Assembly: GCF_018881605.1 (NCBI RefSeq) | Contig: NZ_JACVPZ010000001.1 | Location: 744,001-808,000, forward strand | DNA: 64,000 bases | Origin: Polynucleobacter sp. UB-Tiil-W10 | GTDB lineage: Bacteria > Pseudomonadota > Gammaproteobacteria > Burkholderiales > Burkholderiaceae | Direction: 5' to 3' | Shown here: in pieces, positions 36,263 to 38,694 of the stretch | How the letters are laid out: each line of letters starts with the position of its first letter | Numbering within the stretch: the first letter of the stretch is position 1 | Made by a program: the position numbers and the translations under genes | The notes under the pieces: model-generated | Seen by the model: the letters and a program-made list of their open reading frames with translations, nothing else | What the model was told of the DNA's origin: nothing | Databases searched by the model: none

Positions 36263-36296
36263 TAGAAACTCGCTAGCCATTGAATCATGGGTTAGC

Positions 36297-36394
36297 GAGC
36301 GCGGTTGCAATTAGCAAACTCCGTTTAGGAGCCTACTCCCTTCAAGCCTGGGGAAGTGCTGGGTCTCAGCATTCCTTGCAACGCTCCTTGAAGG
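36297..36394 (-). promoter_or_regulatory. S-adenosylhomocysteine (SAH) riboswitch
   Basis: Leader of ahcY matching the SAH aptamer. On the - strand, P1 is formed by CCTTCAAGG and CTTGAAGG. The conserved AAGGAGCGTTGCAA follows the 5' P1 strand, a small stem (GCTGAGACCCAGC) follows, then CCCCAGGCTTG closes the core. The downstream TTGCAACCGCGCTC can pair with GAGCGTTGCAA as the pseudoknot helix. SAH riboswitches are known ahead of ahcY/metH genes in beta- and gammaproteobacteria and turn expression on when SAH accumulates. Confidence 0.88.
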
Positions 36395-36424
36395 TATGCC
36401 GTAATTGTAAACAATTACGGCATA
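36395..36424. promoter_or_regulatory. Perfect 30-bp palindrome over the probable ahcY promoter
   Basis: TATGCCGTAATTGT, two bases, then the exact reverse complement ACAATTACGGCATA. It abuts the 5' end of the SAH aptamer. On the - strand the right arm contains TACAAT (36409-36404), a good -10 candidate placing the transcript start at about the first base of the aptamer. A weak -35 (TTGAGG, 36435-36430) is 20 bases away. Operator for a dimeric regulator is the favoured reading. A metK terminator is less likely because no T-run follows. Confidence 0.6.
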
Positions 36425-36462: not shown

Positions 36463-37629
36463 TTACAGACCTGCTGCTGCACGTAATGCAGTCGCTTTGT
36501 CTGTTTGCTCCCAGGTAAATTCTGGCTCCTCACGACCAAAGTGGCCATAAGCAGCAGTCTTACGATAAATTGGACGCAAGAGGTTGAGCATCTTCACGAT
36601 ACCTTTTGGACGTAAGTCAAAGTGCTCAGATACCAATTGAGCGATCTTCTCGTCAGAAATCTTACCGGTGCCAAATGTGCTCACCATGACTGAAGTTGGT
36701 TTCGCAACACCAATAGCGTAAGAGATCTGAATCAAGCACTTGCTCGCTAAACCAGCAGCAACCACGTTCTTCGCAACATAACGACCAGCATATGCAGCAG
36801 AGCGGTCAACCTTAGAAGGATCTTTACCAGAGAAAGCGCCACCGCCATGAGGAGCTGCGCCACCGTAGGTATCCACAATAATTTTGCGGCCTGTTAAACC
36901 GCAATCGCCCTGTGGGCCGCCGATAACGAAACGACCGGTTGGATTAACCAAAAAGTTAATCGCGCCTTTGATCAAATGCTTAGGCAATACTGGTTTGATG
37001 ATTTCTTCAATCACTGCTTCACGTAATTTCTCAAGGGAAATCTCTTCATCATGCTGAGTAGAGAGCACAACGGTATCGATAGAGTCAGGTTTGCCATCCA
37101 CATAACGCAAAGTCACTTGTGACTTTGCATCAGGGCGCAACCAGTTCAAACGGCCATCGCGACGCAATTGTGATTGACGCTCAACCAAACGATGCGACAA
37201 GTGAATCGGCAAAGGCATAAGCTCTGCAGTTTCGTCACAAGCATAACCAAACATCAGGCCTTGGTCGCCAGCGCCTTGATCTAAGCCGTCATCATGAGCC
37301 TTATCAACGCCTTGAGCGATGTCAGGGCTTTGCTTGTCATAAGCAACCAACACTGCACAACCTTTGTAATCGATACCATAGTCAGTATTGTCGTAACCAA
37401 TTTCACGCAAGGTATTGCGAGCCACCTGAATGTAATCAACGTTAGCGTTAGTAGTAATTTCACCAGCCAAAACTACCAAGCCGGTGTTACATAAAGTCTC
37501 TGCTGCAACGCGTGCAGTTGGATCTTGAGCCAAAATGGCATCCAAGATGGAATCAGAAATTTGATCTGCTACTTTATCGGGGTGACCTTCAGAAACGGAT
37601 TCTGAGGTAAAGAAGTAATCGTTTGCCAT
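36463..37629 (-). CDS. metK: S-adenosylmethionine synthetase
   Basis: Makes SAM from methionine and ATP. 388 residues. Characteristic motifs: [15 protein letters not shown] near the N-terminus (ATP contact), [12 protein letters not shown] (methionine/ATP loop) and [16 protein letters not shown] (phosphate loop). ATG start with AAAGGA upstream. Preceded by a leader resembling a SAM-II riboswitch, and followed by the ahcY-metF unit after 234 bases. Confidence 0.98.
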
Positions 37630-37697
37630 TGCATATTCCTTTAAAAAATTAACACGATCATTGGGACAACTCGACGTGCCAGGAACAACAACGGCGA

Positions 37698-37748
37698 CGC
37701 TTTAGCAGAATTTATGAATCGCCCTGCAAGTTGCCTTAACTCAGCGAT
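37698..37748 (-). promoter_or_regulatory. Probable SAM-II-type riboswitch of metK
   Basis: On the - strand the leader reads ATCGCTGAGTTAA, then CTTGCAGGGCGAT, then ATAAAT and TGCTAAA. This follows the SAM-II order: P1 ATCGC/GCGAT, UGANUUAA loop, UUGCA, AUAAAU, GCUAAA. The loop GCAG and tail CTGC can form the required pseudoknot with bases different from those of the published aptamer. An alternative stem GGCGA/TCGCC would disrupt P1. The first codon of metK is about 68 bases downstream. The match is from memory of the family; no covariance model was run. Confidence 0.65.
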
Positions 37749-37754
37749 AGTGAG

Positions 37755-37784
37755 ATTTTATCCGAAAAATACCCAATTCAGCAA
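37755..37784 (-). promoter_or_regulatory. Probable sigma-70 promoter of metK
   Basis: On the - strand, TTGCTG (37784-37779) and TAAAAT (37760-37755) are separated by 18 bases. Transcription would begin about 7 bases further on, right at the 5' edge of the putative SAM-II aptamer, so promoter and riboswitch positions support each other. Confidence 0.5.
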
Positions 37785-37833
37785 AGTAAGCTGAAATCCA
37801 CACACTAAGAGCGGCATTGAATATCATTGGGGG

Positions 37834-38694
37834 GTGCGAAAACTCCTTCTCAAGCTCTGCCTTAGTGCTATTGCCGTACTTCCCCTTGCGCTCGTGCAGG
37901 TGATTGGGTCATTTTTAGGCATGCTGGCCTATGTTGGCTCAAAGCAATATCGCTCACTCTTTAGACCTCAATATGAAGCTGTAGTGCGTGTTCGAGGTCT
38001 GCCATTCAAGCTCTGGGAAGCAGTGCGCGCCTCCGGAATGCTGTTTTCAGATAGCTTATGGATTTGGCGTAACCCCCAAAAGGCGCTTGCATTGGTAGAT
38101 GTTCAAAACTGGGATTTGGTAGAGACCGCCATTAACGAAGGTCATGGCTTAGTCATGCTGACCCCTCATCTCGGTGGCTTTGAGATCATTCCACGCGTAC
38201 TTGCCCAGCATTTTCCAGCAACTATTCTCTATCGCCCCTCACGCCAAGAGTGGCTCAATGAGGTAGTAGAAGAAGGTCGCGCTTATCCCAATATGCATTT
38301 TGTGCCAACCAACCTCAATGGTGTGCGCCAAATGACTAGAGCGCTCACGCGAGGCGAAGCGATTGGCATTCTTCCAGATCAAGTACCCAGTGGAGGCGAA
38401 GGTGTTTGGGTTCCGTTCTTTGGGCGCCCCGCATACACAACACCATTACCAGCACGTCTTGCCAATCGAAACAACACTCCAGTAGTGATGTTTACCGCCA
38501 AACGCAAAGGCATTGGCAGGGGTTGGCTCATGCAGGCAACCCGTCTTGCCCCCCTGTCTGAGGATGCAAGCATTGCTGCTGCAGAACTCAATATTGCGAT
38601 TGAAAATGCAGTGCTCGTCGCACCTGAACAATTCATTTGGTCATACAACCGCTATAAGCATCCCACTGGTGCAGAATTGCCTCCAAGCAATTAA
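37834..38694 (+). CDS. LpxL/HtrB-like lysophospholipid acyltransferase (copy 1)
   Basis: Late acyltransferase family member that adds secondary acyl chains to lipid A precursors at the inner membrane. 286 residues: N-terminal hydrophobic helix (about 5-34), the HX4E catalytic motif His112-LGGF-Glu117, then LYRPSRQ, LPDQVPSGGEGVWVPFFGRPA and the C-terminal WSYNRYKHP. GTG start; no ATG is available upstream in frame, and the ribosome site is poor (G-run directly before it). Divergent from metK; another family member follows 23 bases later. Confidence 0.88.
   Translation: MRKLLLKLCLSAIAVLPLALVQVIGSFLGMLAYVGSKQYRSLFRPQYEAVVRVRGLPFKLWEAVRASGMLFSDSLWIWRNPQKALALVDVQNWDLVETAINEGHGLVMLTPHLGGFEIIPRVLAQHFPATILYRPSRQEWLNEVVEEGRAYPNMHFVPTNLNGVRQMTRALTRGEAIGILPDQVPSGGEGVWVPFFGRPAYTTPLPARLANRNNTPVVMFTAKRKGIGRGWLMQATRLAPLSEDASIAAAELNIAIENAVLVAPEQFIWSYNRYKHPTGAELPPSN

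Follow-up and report, generated by a model that had tools for sequence, protein, structure and literature searches.

The metK locus

The window, a 64,000-nt stretch of Polynucleobacter DNA, carries on its minus strand metK, an SAH riboswitch, ahcY and metF (the gene names are our own reading). SAM, the cell's main methyl donor, is the product of MetK. The SAM cycle is here gathered in one cluster with two riboswitch types, the metK leader coming first and the SAH riboswitch following it between metK and ahcY-metF; an SAH riboswitch is also found in 5 of 18 named loci that have such a metK leader.

The metK leader folds, between 37748 and 37696 on the minus strand, as a SAM-II-type pseudoknot (Table 1). 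Each of the aptamer elements that the original prediction had named between 37748 and 37698 is present, in the place, order and strand given. The aptamer does lie in that interval; the boundary at 37698, however, falls inside the outer pseudoknot helix, and the interval omits a downstream platform at 37700-37627. The inner helix pairs GCAG (37727-37724) with CUGC, and TTGC occupies 37729-37726; the outer helix contains one G-U pair in the window.

Table 1. Features of the metK leader and its neighbourhood, in window coordinates
Feature	Position	Strand	Sequence, assignment and basis
-10-like hexamer	37760-37755	-	TAAAAT; 6 nt before P1; would place +1 near 37748
P1 stem	37748-37743 with 37723-37718	-	AUCGCU with GGCGAU; from sequence
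Third strand	37742-37736	-	GAGUUAA; SAM-II positions 8-14 by our own alignment
Position 10	37740	-	G, not U; name from PMC3764141
U11, U12	37739, 37738	-	names from PMC3764141
Outer 3-bp pseudoknot helix	37735-37733 with 37698-37696	-	GGC with GUC; covariation in alignments A1 and A4
Candidate apo-state helix	37735-37730 with 37670-37665	-	GGCAAC with GUUGUC; clade-specific complementarity
Inner pseudoknot helix with putative SAM pocket	37729-37724, 37708-37705	-	UUGCAG, CUGC
ATAAAT element	37715-37710	-	from sequence
GCUAAA element	37706-37701	-	invariant in 53/53 model-retrieved sites
Equivalent of SAM-II U44	37704	-	U; adenine contact; by alignment, contact from PMC3764141
Equivalent of SAM-II A47	37701	-	A; methionine contact; by alignment, contact from PMC3764141
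P3 hairpin, candidate anti-sequestor	37700-37692 with 37681-37674	-	GCGU-c-GCCG with UGGC-ACGU; shares GUC with the aptamer
P4 sequestor	37693-37681 with 37640-37627	-	covers SD (AGGA) and AUG; covaries in 69 leaders
metK	36463-37629	-	SAM synthetase, 388 aa; ORF start 37629; regulated gene in the proposed scheme
SAH riboswitch (RF01057)	36290-36395	-	Rfam 48.4 bits, cut-off 37; separate element

A sigma-70 promoter had also been placed directly upstream of the aptamer. A consensus scan finds none, and the TAAAAT hexamer by itself (the -35 region is weak by eye) makes this a weak claim. A -10-like hexamer does recur in 64 of 66 leaders of the genus, at identical spacing in 49, as judged by a loose pattern chosen post hoc.

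Distribution and covariation

All 66 readable metK leaders of Polynucleobacter (67 loci, one of them incomplete) carry the core GAG-UU-UUGC-GCUAAA, with GCTAAA lying 62-79 nt upstream of the metK start. Among the first-fetched metK leaders of 23 other families our own pattern finds the core in 9 and none in 14; three further families have it (G079, G074 and G094), and a metK leader of this type is present in at least 13 families, that of the genus itself included. A pattern search of named genomes yielded at least 119 stretches, 80 of them listed as loci, and 68 of these listed loci stand before metK, in genera that include Cupriavidus, Ralstonia, Burkholderia, Paraburkholderia, Massilia, Achromobacter, Bordetella and Pandoraea. 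Elsewhere among the listed loci, a tandem (L187) precedes a small protein, the downstream gene is not assigned at L214 (also a tandem), L169 and L218, and L167 and L212 end short downstream. Five listed loci (L159, L163, L176, L180 and L190) have no GCTAAA core by our pattern and are probably chance matches. At L142 a GAGTTAA (G10) SAM-II copy at 826-887 on the plus strand of Pelagibacteraceae DNA is followed by a terminator-like hairpin and a metY-type gene (O-acetylhomoserine sulfhydrylase). Searched with a covariance model built from 33 metK leaders (R1), the order yields a match at E<=0.01 in 228 of 300 genomes (117 of 139 genera); in the class, at E<=1e-4 and mostly with weaker scores, 107 of 276 genomes match. 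Canonical and tandem SAM-II are counted in both figures, and some families of the order are without a match.

The original prediction had taken the bases of the pseudoknot, different from those of a published example, for covariation, and had proposed an alignment of related metK leaders; in such alignments the pairing is both conserved and covarying. Alignment A1 comprises 33 of 63 distinct cores, themselves picked by letter pattern (L028 and L029 are among those omitted, for an insertion or a misplaced pattern start). In it 97.0% of 429 cells pair, with two-sided changes in 7 of 13 pairs against a shuffled mean of 2.4, and in 500 shuffles neither the two-sided count nor the covariation score was ever reached; structures slid along the same alignment pair at 22-51%. 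The number of further pair types in A1 is not raised (12 against 11.5 in shuffles, 251 of 500 as high). Alignment A4 holds 77 sites, five of them GATTTGA copies, from 69 of the 80 listed pattern loci plus L008, L123 and L125 (left out were L148, L159, L163, L169, L173, L176, L180, L186, L190, L208 and L211); 97.5% of its 996 cells pair, 9 of 13 pairs show two-sided changes, none of 500 shuffles reaches any of five measures, and slid structures pair at 25-56%.

P1 has two-sided changes in four of its six pairs in A1 and in all six in A4, in which P1 leans toward R1 because A4 was aligned to the P1 of that model. In the inner pseudoknot helix two variable pairs covary (A-U, G-C, U-A) and the other two are constant, and the outer helix shows few changes, some of them compensated (AAC/GUU in L091). 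Covariation thereby extends over P1 and the H-type pseudoknot that mark SAM-II, and it argues that the aptamer fold is under selection.

Relation to SAM-II

Rfam does not find the element. A cmscan of 37500-37950 gave no match up to E=10, so that the search with the SAM-II family (RF00521, SAM_alpha), for which a match had been anticipated, came out negative in the window, as it did for SAM/SAH (RF01727), likewise to E=10. The long-loop SAM-II family (RF01726) has no Rfam match in the window or in the loci of 18 relatives; many relatives carry loop inserts, some of them hairpin-like by eye. Nor does the window match SAM-V, for which we take RF01826 to be the accession; the SD at 37640-37637 is separate from the outer helix at 37698-37696. 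A search of the bacterium's own genome with RF00521 returned 15 matches, the best at 14.1 bits and the metK leader not among them; these weak matches were set aside as noise, control genomes matching too, in 13 of 14 and 14 of 14. In the leader loci of the 18 relatives, RF00521 matches 2 at E<=5, with a best score of 20.9 bits against a cut-off of 36, and no SAM family rises above its Rfam cut-off in the 18 named loci. The Rfam SAM-II model thus misses metK leaders of, among others, Cupriavidus, Ralstonia, Paraburkholderia and Achromobacter. To judge from its alignments, RF00521 covers P1 alone, without the pseudoknot. By Rfam score the window falls outside the family, whose gathering cut-off is 36 bits.

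Because Rfam was negative and its weak matches were noise, models of our own were built. One line starts from ten loci that RF00521 retrieved in a genome search at 33-45 bits, four above the cut-off and six at 33-35. A model made from only these ten canonical loci (R3) scores 33.3 bits (E 1.2e-7) at 37751-37689 of the window, over a best background of 12.3, which places the leader in profile homology with accepted SAM-II members. R3 also scores 28-42.5 bits on 14 of 14 other metK loci, not a fair sample, since they were chosen with the scores of another model, R2, in view (good scorers plus two weaker ones). R2, derived from 19 canonical SAM-II sites, gives the window 40.1 bits; over its 29 sources it scores 22 at 28.9 bits or more and four long-loop relatives at 15-20, and on L084, L092 and L140 it picks up background fragments only. 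In the opposite direction, R1 scores 25-44 bits on the canonical copies of the RF00521 loci and recovers all ten. At the site itself, a model of related leaders that includes the window's own gives 83.1 bits, with at most 10.7 elsewhere in the 64 kb.

Two further results were discarded. A second R2 match in the same genome (18.9 bits) was dropped, no metabolic leader context being visible around it; a search of a plasmid collection returned 19 records, at 60-90% identity and each with less than 80% of the query covered, which are probably metK coding sequence.

The SAM-II reading of the original prediction is thus borne out by model homology in both directions, by covariation of the three aptamer helices and by linkage to metK beyond the genus. 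Comparative analysis identifies the metK leader element as a SAM-II-type riboswitch variant homologous to SAM-II and outside the coverage of Rfam 15.

The downstream platform

Downstream of the aptamer two mutually overlapping helices are predicted, of which P4 would sequester the SD and the start codon. Its evaluation drew on 69 leaders, a dissimilar subset of 138 distinct ones (53 from the genus, 21 from other fetched loci and 64 from the pattern search). Across these the P4 duplex has a mean of -15.0 kcal/mol with its own partner strands and -10.5 (sd 0.31) with permuted ones, a difference reached in 0 of 20000 permutations. Against dinucleotide shuffles, which preserve composition, the mean z is -1.83, with p<=0.05 in 36 of 69 leaders and values below zero in 63 of 69; in the window itself z is -2.6 (p 0.015). 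P3 is the weaker of the two, at a mean z of -1.37 with p<=0.05 in 20 of 69 and only -1.18 in the window. The segment GUUGUC on the 3' side of P3 matches the aptamer's GRCAAC in 53 of 53 distinct leaders of the genus, and GUUGUC is found in 3 of 85 others; the two plausibly form a clade-specific apo helix, too invariant for a covariation test.

That the leader acts instead on transcription, as a SAM-II riboswitch with a terminator, is very improbable. Most SAM-II riboswitches are described as transcriptional in PMC6061858, and GATTTGA copies in related genomes have terminator-like hairpins on their 3' side (by eye), but a scan of 37600-37860 found no terminator-like site, and it is with the SD/start region that P4 covaries.

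How the aptamer would communicate with P4 is less straightforward. In nearest-neighbour folds of the window P4 stays closed whether or not the aptamer is formed (8.44 against 8.46 kcal/mol to open the SD); P1 plus P4 come to -16.1, and P3 plus the GRCAAC/GUUGUC helix to -9.6. With P4 closed in both states, switching would need co-transcriptional or pseudoknot effects that these programs ignore, or else the proposed exchange of P3 for P4 is wrong. Over the 69 leaders, blocking the aptamer raised the cost of opening the SD in 41 and lowered it in 10 (mean 7.66 versus 6.27 kcal/mol), in a test that is biased because blocking also removes competing pairs; blocking GUC on top of the rest had no significant added effect across the same leaders (p 0.10).

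Tandem copies

Some related genomes carry the aptamer in tandem. At L125, L187, L122 and L008 the first copy is of the GATTTGA type and has a terminator-like hairpin (by eye); the second, a GAGTTAA copy, lies where a small protein begins, and in the tandem loci examined the metK-type copy stands before a ribosome-binding site. This layout agrees with a translational role of the metK-type copy.

The small protein is conserved, begins MYDC, is ~95-105 aa long and has INxxFGxxLxISCxLRR near its end (L121, L123, L125, L008 and L187); it follows a tandem made up of a canonical and a metK-type SAM-II, and its start lies 92-105 nt beyond the GAG of the metK-type, second aptamer. Pfam has no match for the small protein of L121 or L187, or for the more distant one of L135. 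In one genome of the class (G585, L270-L274) there are five tandem SAM-II pairs, accounting for ten R1 matches, and in each pair the copy with a terminator-like hairpin comes first. Downstream of L270 is an HD_4-domain gene. Of separate interest, RF02424 (Bp2_287, a Burkholderia sRNA) has sub-cut-off matches antisense to canonical SAM-II in five of the ten RF00521 loci (L001, L002, L005, L008 and L009), and the family could derive from a SAM-II leader read on the wrong strand.

The pocket and position 10

Thirteen SAM-II nucleotides are given as completely conserved in PMC3764141, U10 among them. The other 12 show no variation in the 53 sites that R1 retrieved, canonical copies included, from 42 loci not selected by letters, nor in the 66 genus leaders, a set chosen solely by place before metK. 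(The same invariance in A1 carries less information, its rows having come from a pattern that requires most of these letters.) The window likewise has the pocket letters U11, U12, U20-C23 and G42-A47. The exception is position 10, which is G in the window, in 32 of 33 A1 rows and in all 66 genus leaders; its count over the 69 leaders was not used because the search pattern, which fixes GAGTTAA and GACAACTTGC, biases it. U10 occurs at L079, before metK, and in the second tandem copies of L004, L135 and G585, so that both letters serve the same architecture. The class assignment of the original prediction accordingly holds as to the SAM-II-type fold; being outside RF00521 as defined, and with G for U at position 10, the metK leader is a SAM-II variant.

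The G at position 10 raises the question of the ligand. A SAM-II-derived aptamer whose ligand has shifted with the U10-to-G change, toward no preference for SAM over SAH or toward another compound of the SAM cycle, could still control metK translation. The near-universal G10 of the metK leaders would suit such a shift, as would the tandem arrangement of both aptamer types, which would accommodate two different inputs. In SAM-V the equivalent of position 10 (by our own alignment) is a U that hydrogen-bonds the uridine reading the SAM adenine (PMC6061858), and spermidine-binding variants of the SAM-I aptamer are reported, including one upstream of a metK gene (PMC10853860). Against it, U10 and G10 interchange within the same lineage and the same roles (L079 and the second copies of L004, L135 and G585), the sulfonium-reading U11 and U21 and the methionine-reading A47 are invariant, and a G10 copy stands, with a terminator-like hairpin, before the metY-type gene of L142. 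A shifted ligand is therefore unlikely. Somewhat more doubtful is a wider proposal, that the metK-type aptamer forms a distinct SAM-II subclass in which the U10-to-G change tunes or changes the preference, and that the U10 (transcription) and G10 (translation) copies of a tandem report different signals of the SAM cycle.

The aptamer might also have lost ligand binding altogether, the likeness to SAM-II being ancestral and the structured translational leader responding to a protein or to temperature. The window folds, in which the RBS-sequestering helix is closed whatever the state of the aptamer, are compatible with this, and in a tandem riboswitch the SAM-II component can fail to respond to SAM (PMC11508383). 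Loss of binding should, however, relax the pocket, and its letters have stayed invariant in the 53 model-retrieved sites while the helices vary; the retention of the leader before metK in so many families also speaks against the loss, which is quite improbable. The metK leader element probably works like SAM-II.

A proposed model for control of metK

A SAM-II pseudoknot with its pocket, homology to SAM-II, recurrence before metK and a covarying P4, all drawn from sequence comparison, point to a SAM-II-type riboswitch that acts on translation, which we consider the likely nature of the metK leader. Since the covarying P4 pairs the segment following the aptamer with the SD/start region, SAM-dependent translational shut-off is its likely output. 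The ligand would be SAM, the product of MetK. Binding would fix the outer helix of 3 bp (GRC/GUC) together with the third strand, and GUC would thereby be withdrawn from the P3 anti-sequestor and, in this genus, perhaps also from a state that includes the GRCAAC/GUUGUC helix. The strand so freed would close P4 over the SD and AUG, and translation of metK would fall at high SAM.

Comparison with known systems

The closest relative is SAM-II itself (RF00521; PDB 2QWY). The metK leader has in common with it P1 and the H-type pseudoknot, detection by each other's models, the pocket letters (U11 U12 / U20 U21 G22 C23 / G42 C43 U44 A45 A46 A47) and, by eye, an outer 3' helix at equal spacing. It differs in the G at position 10, in GRCAAC before UUGC, in an outer helix of 3 bp, in its sub-cut-off Rfam score, in having metK as its target and in its downstream P3/P4 RBS platform. 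Mixed platforms have a precedent: 44 tandem SAM-II riboswitches, some with both kinds, are recorded in PMC9481103, with the terminator copy first and the RBS copy second, as at L125, L187 and L008; the metK leaders examined, in contrast to those tandems, are single, and neither position 10 nor metK comes up in the passages of that paper drawn on here.

SAM-V shares the pocket core, translational control and a short outer helix (PMC6061858), but there the outer helix itself holds the SD, whereas in the metK leader a separate helix binds the SD, ~56 nt further downstream. SAM/SAH (RF01727) is, like this element, a small pseudoknot before metK; PMC2864571 confines it to Rhodobacterales, and here it has no match.

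The original prediction regarded a betaproteobacterial metK case of SAM-II as worth checking. Occurrence as such was already known, SAM-II being reported from Alpha-, Beta- and Gammaproteobacteria in PMC2704228; the new parts are the platform and metK as the target. No description of the metK leader was found in the CC-licensed papers that the literature search covered. The 2014 survey of Leyn (PMC4239095) bears most directly on it. As far as the portions of that survey drawn on here go, SAM_alpha was found in Rhizobiales and Rhodobacterales only, a metXZ element of betaproteobacteria was described, with a terminator-antiterminator and without a link to SAM-II, and regulators of betaproteobacterial metY, metK and metNIQ were sought unsuccessfully. 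Two of the ten RF00521 loci, L001 and L003, stand before metZ (O-succinylhomoserine sulfhydrylase by NCBIfam), and their leaders score 44.3 and 38.1 bits with RF00521; from these scores we infer that the metXZ element is probably canonical SAM-II. The metK leader is in turn a candidate for the regulator of betaproteobacterial metK that the survey failed to find; recurring across the order, and with a defined change in its pocket and a translational platform that covaries, it opens the question of metK regulation to direct testing.
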